Assembly (NCBI GenBank): GCA_938038205.1
Contig: CALHSA010000019.1
Location: forward strand, 1-41,023
DNA from: an uncultured bacterium
GTDB lineage: Bacteria; Bdellovibrionota_C; UBA2361; JANWWW01
Length of the DNA: 41,023 nucleotides
Direction: 5' to 3'
Part shown: piece after piece, positions 5,493 through 37,042 of the stretch
Numbering within the stretch: the stretch's first letter is position 1
How the letters are laid out: the number at the start of each line of letters is the position of its first letter
Position numbers and translations under genes: made by a program
Notes under the pieces: model-generated
Told to the model about the DNA's origin: nothing
Database searches by the model: none
The model's input: only the letters and a program-made list of their open reading frames with translations

Positions 5493-6593
5493 TTATTGCA
5501 GCTTCAAACCAGTTTTTAGTTTACCAAACTCAGTGTTAGAGTTCATTTTTATTTTTAATCTGAGATTATTCTGACTTTCCGCATTGGATAAAGCCTCTTC
5601 AAGGGAGATTAAACCTTTAGAGTACAGCTGATACAAACACTCGTCAAACGAAATCATTCCATAATTCGCTCCTTTTTGAATTGCTTCAGGAATCTCATCA
5701 AATTTTCTTCTACATATTAAGTCTTTAACTCTTGGCGAATCCCGAAGGATCTCAACTGCTGGTACCCTAGAACCACTGTTAGACTGAATCAGTCTCTGCG
5801 CTATAATCGCCCTCAAACATGAACTGAGGTCCTGTAAAAGTTGGTTAGCCTTTGATGGATCAAAAAAGTTGATAATACGTTCAAGCGCCTGAACTGCGTT
5901 AGCACTATGAAGTGTAGCCAGACACAAATGTCCAGTTAGCGAAGCATGTATAACTGTCTCCATAGTTTCAGCATCACGAACCTCCCCAACCAGTATAACA
6001 TCAGGAGCCTGTCTTAAAGCATTCTTAAGACCAGTACTGAAATCTTTGGTATCAATACCAATCTCCCTCTGCGTTATTATGGATTTTTTGTGATCCAAAT
6101 AAAACTCAATTGGATCTTCCAATGTGATTATATGCCCAGATAAATTTGAGTTTCTATAGTCAAGTAAACTGGCAATAGTCGTAGTTTTCCCACTTCCAGT
6201 AGGCCCCACAACTAAAATCAACCCTGATTTTAAGTGCATTAGCTGAGTAATATCATTTGGTAGGTTAAGCTCATCAACAGTGGGTATGCTAGTTTTTATA
6301 CGTCTTATAACCATACCAATTAAGCCCCTTTGACGAAACACGTTGATCCTAAATCTCCCAAAAGCCTTAAAATATAAGGCAGTGTTTAGCTCATTCGTTT
6401 CGTAAAACTGAGCAATTTGATTATCTGTTAAAACATCCTTCACCAGATTTTCTGTTTCTTCCTCGGTCAAAGGCTCAATATCTATAAACCTTGTTTCTCC
6501 CTCAATCCTGACCCCAACAGGAGCCCCCACAGTGACGTAACAGTCAGATGCGTTGTACTGAGCCATGAAATCTAAAATATTCTCTATTTTCAT
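5493..6593 (-). CDS. pilU: Type IV pilus retraction ATPase PilU
   Basis: A 366-residue PilT-family hexameric ATPase. The N-terminal PAS-like region (about 1-105) is followed by Walker A GPTGSGKTTT near residue 130, the Asp box ITLEDPIEF, the Walker B region DVILVGEVRDAET and the His box TGHLCLATLHS. It overlaps the preceding pilT by 4 bases (ATGA) and is slightly longer than it, with an extra C-terminal tail, so I assign it as pilU rather than a second pilT. It would act on the cytoplasmic side of the type IV pilus base and assist PilT during retraction. No pilin or assembly genes are in the window. Confidence 0.9.
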   Translation of the reverse strand: MKIENILDFMAQYNASDCYVTVGAPVGVRIEGETRFIDIEPLTEEETENLVKDVLTDNQIAQFYETNELNTALYFKAFGRFRINVFRQRGLIGMVIRRIKTSIPTVDELNLPNDITQLMHLKSGLILVVGPTGSGKTTTIASLLDYRNSNLSGHIITLEDPIEFYLDHKKSIITQREIGIDTKDFSTGLKNALRQAPDVILVGEVRDAETMETVIHASLTGHLCLATLHSANAVQALERIINFFDPSKANQLLQDLSSCLRAIIAQRLIQSNSGSRVPAVEILRDSPRVKDLICRRKFDEIPEAIQKGANYGMISFDECLYQLYSKGLISLEEALSNAESQNNLRLKIKMNSNTEFGKLKTGLKLQ

Positions 6594-7621
6594 GACCGTA
6601 TACTACCTAGTTTCTCTTGCATCACCTCGGTGGAGATGAGCTTTCTATCAACCAAACTCTTTAAGCTTGCCTCAAGAGTTTGCATGCCAAGTGAAGCGGA
6701 AGTTTGAATAACCCCCGGCAATTGATGAATCTTACCCTCTCTTATAAGATTCCTCACCGCAGGCGTCCCAAGCATTATTTCCAGAGCAGCTACTCTACCC
6801 CCACCAATTTTTCTGCATAATGTTTGTGAAATAACAGCTTGAATCGACTCAGCAAACATAGATCGCACCTGTTGCTGCTGTTCAGGTGGAAAAACATCAA
6901 CTATTCTATCTACAGTTTTTGGAGCGCTAGAGGTGTGAAGAGTCCCAAACACTAAATGCCCAGTTTCGGCAGCTGTGAGAGCTAGCTGAATAGTCTCCAG
7001 GTCTCGCATCTCACCAACCAAAATAACATCTGGATCCTCTCTCAAAGCAGCCCTTAAAGCAGCTGCAAAAGATTTTGTATGAGTCCCTACTTCCCTCTGA
7101 TTTACAAGACTCCTCTTAGGCTTATGCACAAACTCGATCGGATCCTCAATAGTTAAAATATGGTATTCAAAATTTTCATTGATGTAATCAATCATAGCTG
7201 CAAGAGTTGTAGATTTACCCGACCCAGTGGGTCCAGTAACAAGGACTAGCCCTCTTGGTTGTTTTGCAATTTCTTTAAAGATTTGAGGAAGCCCTAATTC
7301 GTCAATGCTAAGTATTTTCTGTGGAATTTTTCGAAAAACAGCACCGTATCCTCTGCTTTGTTTAAATACGTTAACCCTAAAGCGCGCTAGATTACCTAAC
7401 TCTATGGAAAAATCTAGATCTGATCTTTCCTCGAATATTTTACGTTGCTCATCATTCATTATATCGTAAATCATTGCTCTAGCATCCTCAGCACTTAAAG
7501 GCGGCATTTTGACTCTCCGCAGACTCCCATGAATTCTCAGCATGGGGGATTCCAGAGCGCTAATATGTAAATCACTAGCATCTTGTGAGTATGCAAATTC
7601 TAAGAGTTTAGTAATATCCAT
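6590..7621 (-). CDS. pilT: Type IV pilus twitching motility ATPase PilT
   Basis: A 343-residue retraction ATPase. It has Walker A GPTGSGKSTT near residue 135, Asp box TIEDPIEF, Walker B DVILVGEMRDLET, His box TGHLVFGTLHT and the C-terminal PilT motif AVRNLIREGKIHQ, which is needed for retraction in characterised PilTs. It powers depolymerisation of type IV pili at the inner membrane. It is first in the pilT-pilU-acyltransferase operon and is divergent from mfd, with 50 bp between start codons. A TATATT ends ten bases before the ATG, giving a very short leader at most, and no Shine-Dalgarno sequence is visible. Confidence 0.95.
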   Translation of the reverse strand: MDITKLLEFAYSQDASDLHISALESPMLRIHGSLRRVKMPPLSAEDARAMIYDIMNDEQRKIFEERSDLDFSIELGNLARFRVNVFKQSRGYGAVFRKIPQKILSIDELGLPQIFKEIAKQPRGLVLVTGPTGSGKSTTLAAMIDYINENFEYHILTIEDPIEFVHKPKRSLVNQREVGTHTKSFAAALRAALREDPDVILVGEMRDLETIQLALTAAETGHLVFGTLHTSSAPKTVDRIVDVFPPEQQQQVRSMFAESIQAVISQTLCRKIGGGRVAALEIMLGTPAVRNLIREGKIHQLPGVIQTSASLGMQTLEASLKSLVDRKLISTEVMQEKLGSIRS

Positions 7622-17528: not shown

Positions 17529-19001
17529 ATGCCATTAGCAACTTTTTCAGGTTTAGCTTCAGGAATTGATTCGTCAAGTCTAATTAAAGCTCTTTTGGAT
17601 GAAAAACGAAAAATAAAGATTTTACCATTAAAAACAGAAATCCAAGATATTGGACAAACAGTGAATGCGTTAGGAGAGCTTAAAAATTTGGTTCAAACAC
17701 TCGCAGAGAAGGCCAGAGTTTTTAGTCCAACCTATGGGGGTCCAATATACAAAAAAGCATCCAGCTCAAATGAAAGCATTTTAACGGCATCAGCATCCTC
17801 ATTAGCCGCAAACGGCACTTATGATATAACTGTAACGCAACTAGCAACCGTTAGCACTGTAACTTTCAATGCCTCTTATACATCCTCTAATCAACAGCTG
17901 ATACCAGGAATTGATGACTTACTTCCAGCCTCCGAACGTACAATTACAATTAGTTATGGCCAAGGAGCAAATCAAATCACTAAAACCTTTGAAATCACAT
18001 CGTCCACCACTGTCGATGATTTCATTAGTAGCTTTAATTCGCAATTTTCAGGCGTAGCCTCTGCAATCTTAGTTAATCTTGGCACAACTAGCTCTCCCAA
18101 CTTTAAAATCATGCTTAAGAGTAACAAAACCGGTTTAACGGAGGGGGAAGTTACAATTTCTGTGGACTCAAACGCAGACCCCAACCTAAGTGCGTGGGTA
18201 GCAAATAAGACTCTCACTCAAGCTCAGAACTTAGAAATGACAGTCTCCGGGATCTCAGGGATAATTTCTAAGCCCTCTAACACTGTCACAGATTTATTCC
18301 CAGGGGTCTCTTTAACTGTTAAACAAACTGGAAACGCAACAATCACCGTAGACACCGATACTTCAAGCATGATAGAAAAATTAGGCAGTTTTGTTGATAA
18401 ATTTAACGAAATAGTTAGATACATCGCTAAAAATAACAAAACATCTGTTACAACAACCTCGGATGGGGAGAGTAGGGCAAAGTTCTCACCTCTAAATCGA
18501 GTCAAGGTTGATGACTCTTTTCTGGATCAATTAAAATCGAAGCTTTCTTCGCTAACTGCCTATGATGATCCTCCACCCTCAACTGCTAAAGTATTCAAAT
18601 TAGTTGATCTGGGAATCTCAACAACTGGTAGAGATGCGAACGGAGCCTTGGATGGCACATTTGCTTTCGACTCTACTAAATTTTCTCAAGCCCTAGCTAA
18701 CGACTTCCAAGGTGTATCTAACCTACTTACAAAATTAGGCAATGAGTTAGCTTCAGCAAATGGATTTTTGGAGGATTTTATTGGATACAACAAGCTTTTT
18801 GATACATCTACATCAACTCTAAATCAGCAAAAAAAAGATTTAGAGAATCGTTTAGCGGATGCAGAGAAAGCCCTAAAACAGGAAGAAGAAACGCTTCTTC
18901 AAACATTCGCTAGATTGGAGAGCATTATGGGAAGGCTTAGAGGTATTCAAACTAGCCTTACTCAAGCTCTCGCAACCTTACCACGGTACGACAAAAGATA
19001 A
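17529..19001 (+). CDS. fliD: Flagellar filament cap protein FliD (HAP2)
   Basis: A 490-residue FliD. The N-terminus ATFSGLASGIDSSSLI is the family signature; FliD_N covers about 10-110. A variable Ser/Thr-rich middle carries the exposed domains, and FliD_C is followed by a long coiled coil near 425-475 (LNQQKKDLENRLADAEKAL, then QTFARLESIMGRL). It caps the growing flagellar filament outside the cell and promotes flagellin folding. An AGGA about ten bases before the ATG supports the start. Unusually, no fliC, fliS or other filament genes are adjacent. Its stop codon is three bases from the 3' end of the opposing tRNA-Pro gene. Confidence 0.93.
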   Translation: MPLATFSGLASGIDSSSLIKALLDEKRKIKILPLKTEIQDIGQTVNALGELKNLVQTLAEKARVFSPTYGGPIYKKASSSNESILTASASSLAANGTYDITVTQLATVSTVTFNASYTSSNQQLIPGIDDLLPASERTITISYGQGANQITKTFEITSSTTVDDFISSFNSQFSGVASAILVNLGTTSSPNFKIMLKSNKTGLTEGEVTISVDSNADPNLSAWVANKTLTQAQNLEMTVSGISGIISKPSNTVTDLFPGVSLTVKQTGNATITVDTDTSSMIEKLGSFVDKFNEIVRYIAKNNKTSVTTTSDGESRAKFSPLNRVKVDDSFLDQLKSKLSSLTAYDDPPPSTAKVFKLVDLGISTTGRDANGALDGTFAFDSTKFSQALANDFQGVSNLLTKLGNELASANGFLEDFIGYNKLFDTSTSTLNQQKKDLENRLADAEKALKQEEETLLQTFARLESIMGRLRGIQTSLTQALATLPRYDKR

Positions 19002-20498: not shown

Positions 20499-20965
20499 CT
20501 TTGAGAAAAGAAAGATAGGATTTTGTTACTTAAAAAATCAATTATATCCCTGACTGAGATAACCCCTAAAAGCTCTCCTTGATCAACGACGGGTAAATGC
20601 CTAAAACCGCCCTTACTCATCAAAGTTAACGCCAGCCCTAGTGGGTCTATTGGTGTTATAGTTTTTACAGGGAAGGTCATGTAATTTTTAATAGGTAACT
20701 CAGGATCAAGTTCAAAATACTTTTTTACAAGATCTCTCTCTGAAAATATACCTTCTATGGTTTGGGTCATGATTATGACTACCCCTCTGTTCGAAATTTG
20801 CAAAAGCTTTATAACATCCTTTGTTTTTGCGCTTGGGGGAACGACTGATACCTCTCTAGGTTTTATTAATCCAACACTTGAGCAGAAAATACTTCCATCT
20901 AGGCCACCGATGTCAGAAACACAAAGCGCATCAAGTAATTTTTGAATATCATCCTCACTTTTCAC
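20495..20965 (-). CDS. CBS-domain pair protein
   Basis: A 156-residue protein of little more than two CBS domains. The first (about 30-90) includes IEGIFSERDLVKKY; the second (about 95-150) includes KGGFRHLPVVDQG and GVISVRDIIDF. Such pairs bind adenine nucleotides or S-adenosylmethionine and act as sensors. It overlaps the end of fapA by 4 bases and is last in the ogg-fapA-CBS run; it also overlaps the convergent asnS by 4 bases. The ligand and target are unknown; no effector domain is attached. Confidence 0.88.
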   Translation of the reverse strand: MKSEDDIQKLLDALCVSDIGGLDGSIFCSSVGLIKPREVSVVPPSAKTKDVIKLLQISNRGVVIIMTQTIEGIFSERDLVKKYFELDPELPIKNYMTFPVKTITPIDPLGLALTLMSKGGFRHLPVVDQGELLGVISVRDIIDFLSNKILSFFSQS

Positions 20966-22311
20966 TCTGCTCTAATTGTATCATCGTGTAATCTAACTGT
21001 GAAAGGCCCTCTTTTTTGCTCTGTTAGTGTCATTTTTTCATCTCCAAATTTAAAAATCACTCCAGGGTACGCTATTTTTAATATCTGTATCTCTCCTTTC
21101 ACTGTTTGATTTTGTTTACTAAGTTGTTTTACAGTTACCACCAAAGTGCTTTTTGCGTGTTGGACTTGCTCCAACTTTTCTCGTAGTTGATTAATTTTAT
21201 CTTGTAATTGTTTAGGCAAATCTGAGGGTTTCTTAAATTCATACGGTCCAAGCTGCATCCTGATTATATTCTCAACTTTGCTAAGCGTTTCAATTTTTTG
21301 ATTTAGCTGCTTTAGCTCAGAAGCAACACCAGCGTCAACAACAATCTCAAGTATAGTCTCTATCCCAGCTTCATTTCCGGCTACATCTATTTTTATTAAG
21401 TTTGAGCAACTGCATAAACCACCAATCATGTTTTTGCACTCTAACTTTTCCCTTGAGTTAATATCACATTGAAGGGAATCTTTTTTTATTAAAACTGATT
21501 TAGCTACAACTTGGCAGCGGATACCACTAAAGAACTCAATCTCCTCCTCAGCATTCAATTTAGCTTGGTCTACATTACCTTTAATAATTATTGATCCCTT
21601 TCCACAGAATAGTTCAGCATGTTTATAAACATCTCCATTCACTACTATCCCTCTATCTGCTTTGACAATAAAACCAACACCAACATTCCCTAAAATCTTT
21701 ACCTTGTTATTGAATCTTATGTTTCCAGTAGTTTGTGATACATCACCGTTTATGACCAACTCCTCCTTTACGTCTATTTGAGCTCCATCATAGTGTAAAT
21801 AACCGAAAGCTTTACTAACCAAAGACTTATGCTTTTCCTGTTCATCAACATTTAAGTTCTCACCAATAATAACAGATACAGTTTTCGGAGAACGGCATTT
21901 TATGATGTTTCCAAAAATATCGTACCCATCCTCCCCTTCTTTTGGGGGAATTATTCTAGCCACCTCTCTACCAGGCTCAATATTATCCAAAAACCTTAAA
22001 CTAGATGAGAATGAGAAAGGCTTAGCCAGAAGAATTAACTTCTCATCAGTTGGGTCAGTCGGTGGCTTGGCTAAACCCAATCTCCTGGGCTTCATAGATG
22101 GTGATGCAAGCATATCTTTAAGAATAGTCTCATCCAATCTAACCCCAGGGAATCGCTCCTGAATTACCTTTTGTAAAATTGGCTTAACCACTAAAAAAGG
22201 TAGCCTTTTGCTTATGACAGCAAAAAGTTTAATTTTATTTTCATCAGTGTAAAAAGGAATTTTTTCATCGAGAACTTCAAGCTCGCATAAAAAATCCAAA
22301 TTATCAAGCAC
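20962..22311 (-). CDS. fapA: FapA/DUF342-family polymerase- or flagellum-associated protein
   Basis: A 449-residue FapA (DUF342) protein. ARIIPPKEGEDGYDIFGN (about 120) is the family hallmark loop, followed by a right-handed beta-helix with repeating V-x-G-D-V units (ELVINGDVSQTTGNIRF, VKILGNVGVGFIVKADRG, GIVVNGDVYKHAELFCG), and then a coiled coil near 330-400 (LKQLNQKIETLSKV, KDKINQLREKLEQVQHAK). Some relatives are flagellar assembly or placement factors, which fits a motile organism, but function is not established for most members. The start is GTG at 22311, 14 bases after the upstream glycosylase gene, without a clear ribosome binding site. Confidence 0.85.
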   Translation of the reverse strand: MLDNLDFLCELEVLDEKIPFYTDENKIKLFAVISKRLPFLVVKPILQKVIQERFPGVRLDETILKDMLASPSMKPRRLGLAKPPTDPTDEKLILLAKPFSFSSSLRFLDNIEPGREVARIIPPKEGEDGYDIFGNIIKCRSPKTVSVIIGENLNVDEQEKHKSLVSKAFGYLHYDGAQIDVKEELVINGDVSQTTGNIRFNNKVKILGNVGVGFIVKADRGIVVNGDVYKHAELFCGKGSIIIKGNVDQAKLNAEEEIEFFSGIRCQVVAKSVLIKKDSLQCDINSREKLECKNMIGGLCSCSNLIKIDVAGNEAGIETILEIVVDAGVASELKQLNQKIETLSKVENIIRMQLGPYEFKKPSDLPKQLQDKINQLREKLEQVQHAKSTLVVTVKQLSKQNQTVKGEIQILKIAYPGVIFKFGDEKMTLTEQKRGPFTVRLHDDTIRAE

Positions 22312-22982: not shown

Positions 22983-23055
22983 GCGGGCATAGCTCAGATG
23001 GTAGAGCGTTTGCTTCCCAAGCAAAAGGTCGCGGGTTCGAATCCCGTTGCCCGCT
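22983..23055 (+). tRNA. tRNA-Gly (anticodon CCC)
   Basis: Acceptor GCGGGCA pairs with TGCCCGC, discriminator T. The anticodon arm is TTTGC-TTCCCAA-GCAAA, giving anticodon CCC, and GGTTCGAATCC lies in the T arm. A TATAAT (22966-22971) ends 11 bases upstream. No CCA is encoded. motA follows 87 bases downstream. Confidence 0.97.
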
Positions 23056-23142
23056 TGTCCTAGAATTCTAAAACATCCTCTTTTCACCATTTTTAATATT
23101 CAGTTTAGAAAAATTTATTTTTTAACGAACAAATGTAAAGGA

Positions 23143-23997
23143 ATGTTCCTTCTACTTGGTCTTATTCTTTGTGTTGCCTCAATTTTAGGAGGATTTATAA
23201 TGCATGGGGGCAACCTCGCAGCTTTGATGCAGCCTAGTGAATTGATAATTATAGGAGGCGCAGGAATATTCTCTTTTGTTGCAGCAAACCCTCCCCAGGT
23301 TGTTAAAGGATTTATTCCAGGAGTGATACATGCAATAAAGGGAAGTGGTGTTTCAAAAGAAGCTTACAAGGAGCTTCTAGGCCTAATGGCTGAAATATTT
23401 AATGTTATGAGGAGAGAGGGTGTGCTCGGTATTGAAAGTGATCTCTCTAACCCTTATGAAAGTCCAAGATTCAAAAAGTACCCCAAAGTTTTACACAACC
23501 ATCACTTGGTTGAGACATTCATTAGCTCACTTAGACTTTTTGTGGACGGCGTTGTGAACGCTTTTGACTTAGAGAGATTAATGGACTCTGAAATGGAGGC
23601 TCATCACGAGGAAGCGCATGCTCTTCCCTCAGCTGTCACAAATATGGCTGACTCACTTCCAGCCTTTGGTATAGTTGCAGCAGTTCTTGGAGTAATAATA
23701 ACAATGCAATACCTTGACCAACCACCCACAGTTATAGGTCAAAAAGTTGCAGCGGCGTTGGTAGGAACGATGTTGGGGATTTACTTATCTTACGGAGTTT
23801 TTGGACCTCTTGGTAAAGCTCTTGATAATTTAGTGAAAGAGGAGGCTGGCTTATATAAGTGTATACAAGCAGGATTAGTTTCGTTTGCAGGAGGATCCCC
23901 GCCTCAGGTGGCTTTAGAATTTGCAAGAAAAACAATTCCTCCCTCATTCAGGCCAACCTCTGAGGAGCTTGAGGAGATCATAAAGAAAGCTAAATAA
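23143..23997 (+). CDS. motA: Flagellar motor stator protein MotA
   Basis: A 284-residue stator subunit with four membrane segments (about 2-20, 33-50, 169-190, 200-222). SLPAFGIVAAVLGV and YGVFGPLGKAL hold the two conserved prolines next to the proton channel; the cytoplasmic loop between segments 2 and 3 contains the charged residues that contact FliG. I chose ATG at 23143, which follows AAAGGA and gives the family length; the open frame extends back into tRNA-Gly but that part is not part of the protein. The TAA overlaps the motB ATG by one base, so the two are translationally coupled. Confidence 0.96.
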   Translation: MFLLLGLILCVASILGGFIMHGGNLAALMQPSELIIIGGAGIFSFVAANPPQVVKGFIPGVIHAIKGSGVSKEAYKELLGLMAEIFNVMRREGVLGIESDLSNPYESPRFKKYPKVLHNHHLVETFISSLRLFVDGVVNAFDLERLMDSEMEAHHEEAHALPSAVTNMADSLPAFGIVAAVLGVIITMQYLDQPPTVIGQKVAAALVGTMLGIYLSYGVFGPLGKALDNLVKEEAGLYKCIQAGLVSFAGGSPPQVALEFARKTIPPSFRPTSEELEEIIKKAK

Positions 23998-25091
23998 TGG
24001 CAAGTCCAGCAGACAAGCCAGTAATAGTAATCAAAAAAAAGGGAGGAGGTCATGGTCATCATGGAGGAGCTTGGAAAATTGCATACGCGGACTTCGTAAC
24101 GGCAATGATGGCATTTTTCCTTTGCATGTGGCTGGTTAATACTGCAGACTCTGCCGTTAAAACTGCTATTGCTAAGTATTTTAAAAAGCCAGGTGTTTTT
24201 GAAATAGGATCTGGTACTCCATTACAAATTGGAGGCTCTGGGATACTGCCCGAAGCTCATGCTCCAGCAACTAGAGAAGAGGATGATGAAAATGGTGTAG
24301 TTACTCGACCTAAGAAAACACGATTTGAGGATTCACCCGGTGAAACTGATCCAAATACTGAAATGGTTGGAAAACAAGTAGAGGGAATAAAAGAGAAGAA
24401 AAAGGGAGGGAATCCATACCTTGACGAGAGCTTTAGAACTTGGCAGGACTACAAAATGGTTCCTCTTGAAGCTTTGATCGAGAAATTCAAACAAAAAATC
24501 TTGAACTTAAAACTTCCAAAAAGCTTGGGGAATATATCTATCAAAGTTGAGGGAGAGTTTCTAAAAATTGAGCTGTTAGATTTACCACAAGGAGGGATAT
24601 TTTACTCAGGATCAGCTGTAATAAAACCCGAAGCAACTCCAATATTAAACGAGATAACAAATCTTTTACGAGAAATTCCAAACGAGTTTAAGATAGTAGG
24701 TCACACGGATTCTAAAAACCTCTTGAATGGAACTTACTCTAACTGGGAATTATCCACTGATAGAAGTAATGCCTTTAGACAATTCTTGTTTCAGAGTGGT
24801 ATAGATGAGAAACGATTACTAAGCGTTGAGGGGGTAGCAGATAGACAACCATTACAAGGCTTACCTGCAGATCATCCAAGCAATAGAAGAATATCATTAG
24901 AGATTAAATTAAAACCAGAGGATATCCGAGCCCCAGAGATAGAGAAAGATTTTGAAGAAAAAACTGATGCAAGTTCAGAGGTTGGAAAAATCGTAGAGCC
25001 TAATGCCAGTGAGAAATCCTTAGAGACTGAGAGGCTGGCTATTCTAGATTTAAAGAAAGAGTGGAGAGTATTTGATCCATTTGAGCCTTAA
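23997..25091 (+). CDS. motB: Flagellar motor stator protein MotB
   Basis: A 364-residue MotB. After a Lys/His/Gly-rich cytoplasmic start (KKKGGGHGHHGGAW), AYADFVTAMMAFFLCMW forms the single membrane helix with the proton-carrying Asp near 32. A charged linker follows, then an OmpA-like peptidoglycan-binding domain (about 195-305) with IVGHTDSK, WELSTDRSNAFRQFL and SNRRISLEI. The form of the channel motif suggests a proton-driven rather than sodium-driven motor, by family analogy. An acidic tail of about 60 residues follows the OmpA domain. It works with MotA in a torque-generating stator anchored to the cell wall. Confidence 0.95.
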   Translation: MASPADKPVIVIKKKGGGHGHHGGAWKIAYADFVTAMMAFFLCMWLVNTADSAVKTAIAKYFKKPGVFEIGSGTPLQIGGSGILPEAHAPATREEDDENGVVTRPKKTRFEDSPGETDPNTEMVGKQVEGIKEKKKGGNPYLDESFRTWQDYKMVPLEALIEKFKQKILNLKLPKSLGNISIKVEGEFLKIELLDLPQGGIFYSGSAVIKPEATPILNEITNLLREIPNEFKIVGHTDSKNLLNGTYSNWELSTDRSNAFRQFLFQSGIDEKRLLSVEGVADRQPLQGLPADHPSNRRISLEIKLKPEDIRAPEIEKDFEEKTDASSEVGKIVEPNASEKSLETERLAILDLKKEWRVFDPFEP

Positions 25092-30773: not shown

Positions 30774-30846
30774 GGGCCCATAGCTCAGTTGGGAGAGCGC
30801 TTGACTGGCAGTCAAGAGGTCAGCGGTTCGAGTCCGCTTGGGTCCA
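30774..30846 (+). tRNA. tRNA-Ala (anticodon GGC)
   Basis: Acceptor GGGCCCA pairs with TGGGTCC (one G-T pair), discriminator A. The anticodon arm is CTTGA-CTGGCAG-TCAAG, giving anticodon GGC. The T arm has GGTTCGAGTCC. No CCA is encoded. No strong promoter is seen in the 27 bases after pepP, so it may be cotranscribed with it. Confidence 0.97.
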
Positions 30847-30890: not shown

Positions 30891-32843
30891 GTGGTTTTTC
30901 CAAGAAGGGGATTTGCAGTTTTTTGGATACTCTTAACAATTATTCCATCTTTAGCGATATTTACAGGAATTATTACAGTGTACGTGAATGAAATGTTTAA
31001 CAGAAATGCAATATTTAACTTGCTTAACGGAGTAAGAAACTTTGGAGCCGGAGCCAATGGTCTTGAAAATTTGGCAAACAACCTTCAAGCTCGTTACCGC
31101 GCAAGAGTAAGATTCCATCGAATCAACCAAAACGAGGTAAGTTTCACAATGAATCTTTTAGGAAAAGATTACCCAATTACAGTAACAAGAGAACCAAGAA
31201 ATGCATATATTTTTTTTGATGCAAGTGATTATAATGCTCCAACAAAGCAAGAGCATCTGAATCCTGAAATATGGATAAATCCAAATACTTCTGGACTTTT
31301 TTCAAGCTTCTTACCAATAACAAGCCACTACAGTAGAGAGGAGAGTGGTCATTTTACAAACATAAATTTATCTTTCGTACGACATTGGACGGGGCCTGAA
31401 GCTTTTGAGAATATTGATTACAGCTTATCGTCAGAAATGAAACGAAGGTTGTTGGCACAATTGTTTAAAGCTGATAATTGCGATATCCTTTGTGCAAGTC
31501 GAGATGACTGCCACGGATATTGGCACTGCTTTAAATGTGAGTCAATATACTCTTGCTTTGGTTTTGATAGCTTCAGAGAGCGGCAAAGCTGCTTGAGGCC
31601 TCTTCTTCGACAGTGTGAAAGAAACTCGCAACTTGGAGTAACAACTTTTCACGGGCAACACTGTTCTAATCCTTTTTTTAATGCTCTAAAAATAGCAAAT
31701 ACCATTATTTGGGATTACTACTCCCTAGATCAACGAGGTAGAATCACCGTTAGAGCTGGTCCAATTGATCTTGACAATAGACCATCTTGGAGAGTTAATG
31801 AGAATAATACTCACCTTGTATTTTCATATGAAAGAGTTCCAAACCCCCTGGCTAACGCAAGTAACACTGCAATTCAAAACTGCACTACAACACAAAGATC
31901 AGCAATTGACCAGGATTGTATTTTAAGTTTGTTTTATGACTCAGATAGATATATTTGGGATATGAGATTAGGTCGTTATTTACCTGCCATAATTTACTCA
32001 TCTGTGTTTAATCGCCCTTACCATTTTATTCCTCAACCTATCTCAGAGCGGGTAATGGACTCATTAAACCAAAATCAAAGACAGAATTACGCTTTCGGAA
32101 TACGAAGATTGCCAGAGCCGTCTTTTTCTGGCTCAGGAAACGCAAATTTAAATGAGAATTATATTTCACGTCTTACTGTAAGAGAGGCGATTTGGGCGCA
32201 GGTTGTCAAACAAAGACCGCAAAGGTTTGAGAGGTTAATTGATGCTGTTATAGATGATATAAACGATATTCGATATCCAAGTAACATACCCACTGACTTT
32301 TTTTTCATATTCGGAGACTTTCCTTGGTTTGATCAACCGAGAGATTACTCGGACGTAGATTGCTCAAGGGAGGAGGTTTTTGGACTTTACAAAGTTAGAC
32401 GAACATTTTTCAGAGGGCCATATCCGTTACCAGCTCTTTTAAGACCTCTTGTTTGTTCAAATGTTTCTTTTGATTCCTCTTCTAGAGTTTATTTTTCTCA
32501 CTTAAGAGATCAATTTGATAGACTTAACAGAGCTCTAAGAAGACGTAATCACCCTACTGCAAACTTATTTTTTATTGTTGCTAGATCTGAAGGCTCATAC
32601 CCATCTCATTCACAAAATTACCACGGATCAAACTGGAATTGCCAAAATAGAGCTTGTAATCCTATTCGAACGGAAGTAAGGTCCATGCTAAATTTTTTAA
32701 ACCAAAATGCACGTAGATGGAACAGACTCTCAATACATTTTGCTTTTATCAACGATCCGGGAAGTTTGGCCTACGAATTGCCAATTTTACTTTTACAAAA
32801 AATAGAGAAAAGTAGGCTTCGAGTAAGAGTATTCGGGGTTTAA
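30891..32843 (+). CDS. Large cysteine-rich surface protein with TadG-like N-terminal anchor
   Basis: A 650-residue protein. RRGFAVFWILLTIIPSLAI (about 5-23) is a pilin- or TadG-like start: basic residues, then one long hydrophobic helix. The rest is predicted outside the inner membrane. It holds about 15 Cys, eight of them in residues 197-242 (C197, C201, C207, C213, C216, C222, C234, C242), which suggests several disulfides. Many Arg, Asn, Phe and Tyr residues are present. No VWA MIDAS motif is clear. The start is GTG at 30891, with a promoter seven bases upstream. A TadE-like gene follows three bases after the stop codon, so the two probably form one surface structure. No other tad genes are present. 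The function is unknown. Confidence 0.7.
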   Translation: MVFPRRGFAVFWILLTIIPSLAIFTGIITVYVNEMFNRNAIFNLLNGVRNFGAGANGLENLANNLQARYRARVRFHRINQNEVSFTMNLLGKDYPITVTREPRNAYIFFDASDYNAPTKQEHLNPEIWINPNTSGLFSSFLPITSHYSREESGHFTNINLSFVRHWTGPEAFENIDYSLSSEMKRRLLAQLFKADNCDILCASRDDCHGYWHCFKCESIYSCFGFDSFRERQSCLRPLLRQCERNSQLGVTTFHGQHCSNPFFNALKIANTIIWDYYSLDQRGRITVRAGPIDLDNRPSWRVNENNTHLVFSYERVPNPLANASNTAIQNCTTTQRSAIDQDCILSLFYDSDRYIWDMRLGRYLPAIIYSSVFNRPYHFIPQPISERVMDSLNQNQRQNYAFGIRRLPEPSFSGSGNANLNENYISRLTVREAIWAQVVKQRPQRFERLIDAVIDDINDIRYPSNIPTDFFFIFGDFPWFDQPRDYSDVDCSREEVFGLYKVRRTFFRGPYPLPALLRPLVCSNVSFDSSSRVYFSHLRDQFDRLNRALRRRNHPTANLFFIVARSEGSYPSHSQNYHGSNWNCQNRACNPIRTEVRSMLNFLNQNARRWNRLSIHFAFINDPGSLAYELPILLLQKIEKSRLRVRVFGV

Positions 32844-32846
32844 GAG

Positions 32847-33527
32847 ATGAGAGCGAGTGTGTCGCTTGAGGCAGCTTTAGTTTTTTTAATTTTTATACCT
32901 GTACTAGTCACGGGTTTAGCTATTTTTGTTTGGGTCAATAATTTACGGGAAATGTCAATTATAGAGCAAACTTGGGGTAGAACCTTACAACCAAGCATTA
33001 ATGAAGCTATTAGAGCAAATTGGGACAGTTTAACAATAGGCAACGTTGCATGGAATCAATTTATTGATAATTCTATTCAGAGGTTTAATGATTACCTAGC
33101 AAGGACGAATTTAAGACAAGATTTAAATATCTTAATTCAAATATCAGTCTGGCAAATTAATTTTAATCCAGAATCAGGAGCCTTCCTGGGCTCGACACTG
33201 CTGACCGAAAGGCAACTGACTTTAAATGATTTTAGGGTTTTCAACCAGGATTTACAAAATTTTAACGCTGAATTAGCTAATGCTCTCCAACGAATTCCTC
33301 CTTTACGAATTACTCTTGGCAGTATCCCAGTTCACTATCACTTTGGCCCTACAATATTTGGTGATGTTACTAGAATTAACTTCTTACCTAATCGTTTTTT
33401 TATCTCCTACTTCTACGGAGTTTTTTTAAACTCAAATATCATGGAATGGGCTTTAAATACTCTTAATCAAATTAACTTAGCACCAAATACTCGATATATA
33501 AGAGGAAGACTACTCCCAGTGATTTGA
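32847..33527 (+). CDS. TadE-like pseudopilin-type protein
   Basis: A 226-residue protein whose N-terminus MRASVSLEAALVFLIFIPVLV resembles TadE/TadG proteins: a short polar lead, Ser-Leu-Glu-Ala-Ala, then a hydrophobic helix. The Glu five residues before the helix core is like that of pilins. The remainder is a periplasmic domain without a recognised family. It starts three bases after the TadG-like gene; GAGATG gives little ribosome binding site. Its stop codon overlaps the -35 of the tRNA-Tyr promoter. It probably partners the upstream gene product. Confidence 0.65.
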   Translation: MRASVSLEAALVFLIFIPVLVTGLAIFVWVNNLREMSIIEQTWGRTLQPSINEAIRANWDSLTIGNVAWNQFIDNSIQRFNDYLARTNLRQDLNILIQISVWQINFNPESGAFLGSTLLTERQLTLNDFRVFNQDLQNFNAELANALQRIPPLRITLGSIPVHYHFGPTIFGDVTRINFLPNRFFISYFYGVFLNSNIMEWALNTLNQINLAPNTRYIRGRLLPVI

Positions 33528-33561: not shown

Positions 33562-33645
33562 GGTGAGGTACCCAAGCGGCCAAAGGGGGCAGGCTGTAAA
33601 CCTGCTGGCGGGACGCCTTCGGGGGTTCGAATCCCTCCCTCACCA
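33562..33645 (+). tRNA. tRNA-Tyr (anticodon GTA)
   Basis: Acceptor GGTGAGG pairs with CCTCACC, discriminator A. The anticodon arm is GCAGG-CTGTAAA-CCTGC, anticodon GTA. A long variable arm (class II) is present, in line with tRNA-Tyr, and the T arm has GGGTTCGAATCCC. No CCA is encoded. Confidence 0.97.
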
Positions 33646-33652
33646 CTCATTA

Positions 33653-34993: not shown

Positions 34994-37042
34994 ATGGCTT
35001 TTATTGACCTGAATTTTGTTGATGAAAAAACTAGTCAGTTAATATCTGAACTAATCTCAAAATCAAAGTTATCTGACCTTAAAATTCTAGGAATTATTAA
35101 TGAGCCTAACTCGGATTACCCAAGGATAGTTGGGATGCTGAATAACAGAAAGGTTATTGTTAGATTTTTGGACGATTTGTGCAAAGCTCATACAGAGCGA
35201 CTTCAATTATTAAGGAATATGTTAACAAAATGGCACTCTTATTCTGATACAACTTTTTTACAGCTTAATTTAGACTCTGAGCACCCCTTCTACATTCGAG
35301 ATTTCTTCAATCTAACTCTTGAAGATAATCCAAAAGTAAATATTCATGATGTTGTTAAATTACTTCTAAGTTACTCAAGGCTTGGTCTTATTCATGGCCA
35401 TCTAAAGCCGTCTAATATTGGTCTTAAAGACGGCAAAATGTACTTACTAGATCCGTGTGTTGCAATTATTTTTCCTTGGAAGGAGTCAAAGTATTTAGCT
35501 CCTGAAAAAATCTTATCTCCACAGGCTGATTCTTACTCAATGGGAGCTTTGTTATCTGAATTCAGAGATCTTCCCTCTGATCTATCTACTTTCTGTGTTC
35601 TAGCCCTAAATCCGGATCCTACAAAAAGACCAAATCCTTCTGTACTGGAGAACCATCAAGTTTCTGAAGTGATTATTAAAAAAAGTAAAAGAACTAGTAG
35701 AGATTATTCGTCATTTATCATACTTGGAAGCATACTTTTGCTACTAAGCATTTTGTTTTTTAAGTTCCAGGATATCAAGAATGTTCAAAAGCCAGAGTTT
35801 ACTCAAGCAGAATTGATTTCAGGGTTAGAATCTAAGAATGTTCAATTCATAAAATCTATTGCTGAGTATATAATTGAATCAGGTGATAAAAATTACTTTT
35901 TCCTAATTATAAATTTACTCAAGAGAATTAAATCTGAAACTTTTTTAAATCCTGAGGTAAAACAAATACTGACCTCATTACCACTAGATGATTTAAATCA
36001 AACTGATGTTAAAGCTTTAGTCACTGCAACTTTTTTTGAGTTTGTCTCACCGACTGCAGTTCAAAATTTAAGCTTTAAAAATCTGTCTTTATTTGGAGTC
36101 CTTTCAATGAAGGCCCTAAGAGTTAAACTTCCAGATAATCTGCCATTTCCTAAAACCTCAGATCCAAAGCTAAATAATCTAATAACTATATTGAGGCAAA
36201 TAAATCAATTATCACCTAATGCTCCAATTGTTGAGTTGTGGGCTAAACTTACTTTTAATTTGTGCTCAGAAGATGGGTTATCTTCTTATTTCTCACCGAA
36301 CTTATTCAGGGAGGCTTTACTCTTTTTAAGAGTATATTTTGAGAATTTTGAAATACCCACTTCTTGTCAATCCTCACTTGTTGAGCTTATATCCAGAGCC
36401 CCCTTTTTCAATCGGTGGTTCGATAGAAACACCGTTGTAGATTGGAAAAATTTTAACACGGAGGAGAAATTGAAATTATTACTAGGATCGCTACCAAATA
36501 ATCTTGATCTAACTTTTTACCTTGATTTAATCAAATTTCCTCTTCAGGACGTATCAACTAAATCGTATGAAATAGTTGAATCGCGTTGTCCGAATGCTGA
36601 GTGTAAGAAATCGTTTGTGGTATTGCTGCGTTTTAAAGAAACACTCACCCGGGAACAGTTAGTAACTCTAGGTTCTTTATTATTACAACAGGAAATTGAG
36701 GGTAATTTTGTTGCAACATGGTTTTCATTAAATCCACCCTTAAACTTCGTAATTGAATTGATAATTGCAAGAGATAAACTAGTATCAGAGGATGCAATTA
36801 CCTTATACGGTTTATCATATTTACTGGCTTCAGATCCGCCATTAACACTAGAGCAAAAAATTAAAATTTGCACTCACAAGGATCCAGCCATCAGAAAATA
36901 TGGAATATCTAAACTTGACGTAAACAACCATGACGACGTCTCACTTTTAGAGCGCTTATCGCAAATTGAAGCCATTGATGAAAACAAAGAACTAATTAAG
37001 AGAAAACTCCAGCTCGTAAGTAAAAGATTAGCGAAAAATTGA
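34994..37042 (+). CDS. Kinase-like membrane protein, probable pseudokinase with helical-repeat C-terminus
   Basis: A 682-residue protein with an N-terminal Hanks-type kinase-like domain, one membrane helix (about 240-256, SSFIILGSILLLLSILFF) and a C-terminal region of about 420 residues that looks like HEAT/ARM-type helical repeats. The catalytic loop reads HGHLKPSN (134-141): the Asp of H-x-D-x-K-x-x-N is His136 (codon CAT at 35399-35401). DFG reads DPC (153-155), APE is kept (169-171), and an Arg equivalent to that of subdomain XI occurs in DPTKRP. No Gly-rich loop or VAIK-type Lys is evident. It is therefore probably inactive as a kinase. It lies just before rpsE and is divergent from the phosphoribosyltransferase gene. 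Confidence 0.75.
   Translation: MAFIDLNFVDEKTSQLISELISKSKLSDLKILGIINEPNSDYPRIVGMLNNRKVIVRFLDDLCKAHTERLQLLRNMLTKWHSYSDTTFLQLNLDSEHPFYIRDFFNLTLEDNPKVNIHDVVKLLLSYSRLGLIHGHLKPSNIGLKDGKMYLLDPCVAIIFPWKESKYLAPEKILSPQADSYSMGALLSEFRDLPSDLSTFCVLALNPDPTKRPNPSVLENHQVSEVIIKKSKRTSRDYSSFIILGSILLLLSILFFKFQDIKNVQKPEFTQAELISGLESKNVQFIKSIAEYIIESGDKNYFFLIINLLKRIKSETFLNPEVKQILTSLPLDDLNQTDVKALVTATFFEFVSPTAVQNLSFKNLSLFGVLSMKALRVKLPDNLPFPKTSDPKLNNLITILRQINQLSPNAPIVELWAKLTFNLCSEDGLSSYFSPNLFREALLFLRVYFENFEIPTSCQSSLVELISRAPFFNRWFDRNTVVDWKNFNTEEKLKLLLGSLPNNLDLTFYLDLIKFPLQDVSTKSYEIVESRCPNAECKKSFVVLLRFKETLTREQLVTLGSLLLQQEIEGNFVATWFSLNPPLNFVIELIIARDKLVSEDAITLYGLSYLLASDPPLTLEQKIKICTHKDPAIRKYGISKLDVNNHDDVSLLERLSQIEAIDENKELIKRKLQLVSKRLAKN

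Follow-up and report, generated by a model that had tools for sequence, protein, structure and literature searches.

A TadG-like and TadE-like gene pair with an eight-cysteine insertion, probably a Tad pilus tip sub-complex encoded apart from its operon

Tad (type IVc) pilus tip proteins have published precedents. In Caulobacter crescentus, CpaL, which has been called a TadG ortholog, is described as a pilin module joined to a split VWA domain; in the published models this domain projects from the end of the pilus, and the small partners of CpaL are minor pilins (PMC12607857). The signature given there for the MIDAS metal site is DxS/TxS/T ... T ... D (PMC12607857). The Kil Tips of Myxococcus xanthus are described as trimers of TadE/F/G-like proteins, of which three out of four are encoded apart from kil-gene cluster II, and the large protein of a Kil Tip has a modular head and predicted intramolecular disulfides (PMC12075869). 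Because such published Tip clusters can be detached, the presence of machinery next to a candidate gene was not treated as essential here. The gene pair described below is very probably a Tad pilus tip sub-complex that is likewise detached from its operon.

The window (the whole 41,023-nucleotide stretch of DNA that was analysed) carries the two genes on its forward strand. The first (30891-32843, +) has a GTG start and encodes a 650 aa protein, designated here a TadG-like large minor pilin on the basis of profile matches. The second (32847-33527, +) has an ATG start, lies 3 bases downstream and encodes a 226 aa protein, designated a TadE-like small minor pilin from its position, its prepilin motif and its counterpart in the sister genus. 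The large protein contains 15 cysteines and the small protein none. Eight of the 15 (residues 197, 201, 207, 213, 216, 222, 234 and 242) fall within 46 residues, the densest such cluster in any of the window's 37 stop-to-stop frames of 120 aa or more; the three frames that rank next have five. The N-terminus of the large protein is a hydrophobic helix and that of the small protein is a canonical prepilin peptidase site, A-SVSLE (residues 3-8; 32853-32870, +). An earlier note, made from the sequence alone, had pointed to two adjacent reading frames with pilin-like starts, the larger one of 650 residues with eight clustered cysteines and about 15 overall, and all of these observations were confirmed.

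The pair is flanked by an M24 peptidase gene and tRNA-Ala on one side and by tRNA-Tyr and a ribosomal L20 gene on the other. The two tRNA genes that bracket it are located at 30774-30846 and 33562-33646; a genomic island was considered on account of this bracketing, and no tRNA was found in the loci of six relatives. Promoter-like sites (13, versus 9.8 +/- 2.9 after shuffling) and terminator-like sites (2, versus 2.4 +/- 1.7) were both close to the shuffle level. Elsewhere in the window, a 682 aa protein (34994-37042, +) has a start that reads like a protein-kinase fold, after which come a hydrophobic segment and a C-terminal part of large size; its single Pfam match (E 0.071) was under the cut-off of that model. 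Pfam matches to FliD (17529-19001), FapA (20962-22311) and MotA/MotB (23047-25091) indicate that the organism probably has a flagellum.

When searched alone, neither the large nor the small protein matched a Pfam or NCBIfam model. In a search of 57 genomes with the single large protein as query, it was found in three: its own, that of a sister genus (G001; 36% identity, residues 5-647) and, weakly, a third (G003). A contig scan with the single protein as query retrieved no relative. A three-row profile matched 11 of the 45 genomes of the class at E ≤ 1e-4, several through short stretches only, and the resulting 12-protein alignment covers all 11 of these genomes, one of which (G028) contributes two proteins. 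The earlier note had proposed a search with TadE and TadG models, which gave no match for the window proteins themselves but did so for their relatives: Pfam Tad (PF13400) matches seven of the 12 aligned large proteins at E ≤ 0.1 (best 1.9e-10), and Pfam TadE matches five at the same threshold (best 0.0087). The TadG-like homology of the window protein is transitive, running through the aligned relatives that match PF13400.

The alignment was used for a test profile of nine distant members, from which the window, G001 and G003 proteins and the first 70 residues were left out. This profile scored 49.0 bits on the window ectodomain, a value that is not fully independent because the nine members had been found by a profile containing the window protein; the scores were 51.4 bits on G001 and 186.2 bits on G003, and those of shuffled and reversed copies were at most 1.7 bits. 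In its untrimmed form it gave 49.5 bits for the window protein and 7.1 bits for one shuffled window copy. A 12-row profile matched 41 of the 45 class genomes at E ≤ 1e-5; many of the weaker hits extended over no more than its N-terminal quarter. It had exactly one match in the genome of the window and gave the window protein an E-value of 3.0e-126; for this protein, as for the other 11 from which the profile was built, the score is inflated. A candidate second TadG gene on contig C36 (E 0.02) was rejected: the 626 aa frame that holds the match looks like a membrane protein with several helices. When solved structures were searched with a profile, there were two weak matches, one to a lipid flippase construct (E 0.12) and one to Mfa5 (E 0.19). 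We found no non-pilus family with sequence homology to the large protein; the VWA fold described below is not itself specific to pili. The eight-cysteine insertion is present in two of the 12 aligned members, those of the window and the sister genus G001, each with eight cysteines of which six are aligned, while C258 and C343 are invariant in all 12.

The structure prediction that the earlier note had suggested yielded a split VWA domain, but at low confidence: the AlphaFold model of the large protein, made from four input sequences, has a mean pLDDT of 51, and 184 of its 650 residues reach 70 or more. It begins with a hydrophobic anchor in a long first helix (residues 6-51; 30906-31043, +), which lacks a Glu at +5 after G7, and continues with a three-strand meander (residues 73-100; 31107-31190, +) that is interpreted as completing a putative pilin-like module. 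Both elements belong to the better part of the model, and no structural match of this stalk to a pilin was found. The first VWA strand (residues 104-110; 31200-31220, +) leads into a MIDAS-like D110-A-S112-D-Y114, and the rest of the predicted domain (residues 254-647; 31650-32831, +) contains low-confidence inserted stretches. Its elements are a core helix (261-278) and strands 285-290, 468-474, 557-564 and 613-620, with helices between. The eight-cysteine stretch (residues 197-242; 31479-31616, +) comes after the first VWA strand (104-110) and before the next confidently modelled core helix (261-278), and is placed between VWA elements on this basis; residues 113-260, which include it, have pLDDT values below 50.

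Foldseek gave no match to this model at E ≤ 0.001. VIA-align, a re-examination of Foldseek candidates (none of them at E 0.001), returned mostly VWA and integrin I-type domains, among them 4fx5 (Z 15.7, rmsd 2.9, 176 aligned). Three pilus-tip proteins were also returned: PitA (Z 13.5), Mfa5 (Z 12.5) and PilB (Z 12.2). We take the Rpn10, TFIIH and Sec23/24 subunit rows to be of VWA type as well; one row, 9c4f_I (Z 14.7), carries the title B19V capsid. The large protein is tentatively modelled as a helix-plus-meander stalk bearing a split VWA domain. D110, S112 and D476 match the MIDAS signature, Y114 departs from it, and no residue could be assigned as the threonine; at the MIDAS-like position the sister genus reads GGGEY.

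The small protein was found in two of the 57 genomes when searched singly, its own and that of the sister genus, where the neighbouring protein is 31% identical. The two distant relatives aligned with it are 14 and 20% identical to it. All seven aligned rows contain one G/A-x4-E site within the first 40 residues. Pfam TadE (PF07811) does not match the small protein, found nothing above its cut-off in the genome of the window and matches one of the seven aligned relatives at E ≤ 0.1 (best 0.0028), so the protein is called "TadE-like" here and is not assigned to the family by Pfam. In the model (mean pLDDT 67), a long helix (2-60) is followed by four strands; VIA-align was uninformative for this model (best Z 5.7, to a kinesin) and listed no pilin. 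From its position, its motif and its counterpart in the sister genus, it is a putative TadE-like minor pilin.

The earlier note had remarked that no tad machinery accompanies the pair, and this holds locally. Pfam scans covered 28 of the window's 35 ORFs of 120 aa or more and recognised no tad gene among them, and a genome-wide scan for secretion ATPases (T2SSE family) had only two matches on the window contig, both PilT-type (5493-7621), so that this 41-kb contig has no TadA-type ATPase. The two PilT-type genes (5493-6593, - and 6590-7621, -) overlap by four bases and suggest a retractable type IVa pilus in addition to the Tad sets. For the genome as a whole the remark does not hold, because a search for tad genes on other contigs found two machinery sets (CpaB-TadA-TadB-TadC). 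Contigs C13 and C33 each encode CpaB, a TadA-type ATPase and two platform-type proteins in a row, with Pfam RcpC, T2SSE and T2SSF matches on both; the TadB gene of C33 has no Pfam match and was named from a phmmer match to TadB of C13. The one prepilin peptidase match in this genome is on contig C38. Further T2SSE-family ATPases are present on C31 and C15, which we take to be PilB- or GspE-type from their long model matches.

Directly upstream of CpaB at the start of C33 is a partial 451 aa ORF (2-1357, +) that has no Pfam match at E ≤ 0.01 and falls outside the TadG family by profile. By eye it looked VWA-like, but as it did not match the TadG profile it is not counted as a TadG gene; it is possibly another tip protein. 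Despite the several T2SSE-family ATPases, no secretin-family match was found in this genome. All 11 of the relatives searched have at least one secretin match above the cut-off, and its lack here is probably a gap in the assembly (1.2 Mb, 81% complete). In G011, one of the four genomes in which the TadG-like gene lies in a Tad operon, the secretin matches listed are on contigs other than that of the operon.

In some relatives the gene order places the family with Tad machinery. At four of 12 loci (L054, L058, L059 and L060), CpaB-TadA-TadB-TadC is followed directly by TadG, and at L057 the machinery is divergent and within a few kb of TadG. For L019, L020, L053, L055, L056 and L061, there was no TadA-type phmmer match in the fetched stretch, which for L019 and L056 is an entire short contig; a CpaB-type phmmer match in L056 (E 8.8e-4) was considered too weak to be counted as machinery. 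In the window and at each of the 11 fetched loci, the immediate neighbour of TadG is a prepilin-type ORF. This count covers the 12 loci of the 11 genomes matched by the three-row profile and not those of the genomes added by the 12-row profile. Five of the fetched loci (L020, L053, L055, L056 and L057) have a further pseudopilin-type ORF near the pair, for which a two-row profile found nothing in the genome of the window (G000) or in G001. Conserved pairing, which the earlier note had singled out as worth checking, is thus observed at every locus covered, and neither of the findings that it named as contrary to its proposal (homology to a non-pilus family, or loss of the second gene in relatives) was encountered.

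Profiles, structure model and gene order in relatives all support the TadG-like/TadE-like reading, and the pair is most likely a relative of a known Tad system as opposed to a new structure. The earlier note had raised the possibility of a new cell-surface structure or adhesin. The first part of this idea is unsupported, since Tad machinery is present in the genome and members of the family are found in a Tad operon at four of the 12 loci; in particular, a new surface structure lacking a secretion system was rejected in view of the Tad-type machinery on C13 and C33. An adhesin-like role at the pilus tip is still plausible.

Three other origins for the pair were weighed against a detached Tad tip. 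It might belong to the tip of a different type IV filament, such as a type IVa pilus or a type II secretion pseudopilus. The T2SSE-family ATPases on C31 and C15 and the PilT-type pair 23 kb away on the same contig would fit such a filament, as would the description of PilB as a VWA minor pilin at a type IVa pilus tip (PMC12075869). We consider this improbable given the Tad operons at four of 12 loci and the seven of 12 members that match Pfam Tad, with the reservation that the neighbours at the remaining loci are known from N-termini and phmmer only, so that type IVa or type II genes are not strictly excluded there. Similarly improbable is a free-standing, membrane-anchored adhesin that no longer enters a filament. 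The separation of the pair from its machinery and the lack of a Glu at +5 of the prepilin site in the large protein could be taken to indicate this, but the motif scan flagged none of the 11 fetched TadG-like proteins, including those in Tad operons, and the missing Glu is therefore no sign of lost function. In addition, the TadE-like partner retains a canonical site and Tad machinery is present.

It is far less probable still that the pair is what is left of a Tad locus decaying in a reduced genome. The small size of the assembly and the apparently incomplete MIDAS-like site are what might be expected of decay, but neither reading frame is broken, and the sister genus retains the pair at nearly full length (with the 36% and 31% identities given above), eight-cysteine insertion included.

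For a Tad tip, the following sequence of events can be proposed. Both proteins would be inserted in the inner membrane and processed near their N-termini, and would co-assemble through their helices. The pair would then prime assembly of the Tad filament and end up at its distal end, where the VWA domain with its cysteine-rich knob would contact a surface or another cell; its most likely role is to prime and cap the filament. The eight-cysteine insertion, presumably disulfide-bonded, would lie in the loop after the first VWA strand, beside the expected ligand face. As the sole TadG-family gene detected in this incomplete genome, the large gene and its partner may serve one or both of the Tad machines. 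A more speculative idea, which we regard as rather unlikely, concerns this small-genome lineage: the eight-cysteine knob would here have replaced the VWA metal site as the part of an exchangeable Tad tip that does the work, and the pilus head would be specialised for a single target (prey, host or surface).

By these results, two genes that lacked annotation are assigned to Tad pilus tips. They come from a poorly characterised class, in which the TadG-like profile has at least a partial match in nearly all genomes (41 of 45) and Pfam and NCBIfam models miss the window pair. PitA, Mfa5 and PilB belong to other pilus systems and have in common with the large protein the VWA fold that is predicted for it, at 6-10% identity, a likeness at the level of fold only. 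By their published descriptions, CpaL and Aggregatibacter TadG have a pilin-like module followed by a VWA domain in two sections, together with small partner pilins, and this resembles the architecture tentatively predicted for the window pair. Unlike CpaL, the window pair has an eight-cysteine insertion, an apparently incomplete MIDAS-like site and a location away from a Tad operon. The insertion in the predicted VWA domain is its distinctive feature, common only to the sister genus among the 12 aligned members. The KilL/KilM/KilN Tips, as described, are also TadE/F/G-like minor pilins encoded in small clusters, some of them distinct from the machinery cluster, but with three minor pilins encoded together in place of two. 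The extra domain of KilN4 is described as having no PDB structural match (PMC12075869), whereas the head predicted here is VWA-like. To the published idea of a tip-customised Tad pilus (PMC12075869), the window pair would add a head design in which a VWA domain carries a cysteine-rich insertion.
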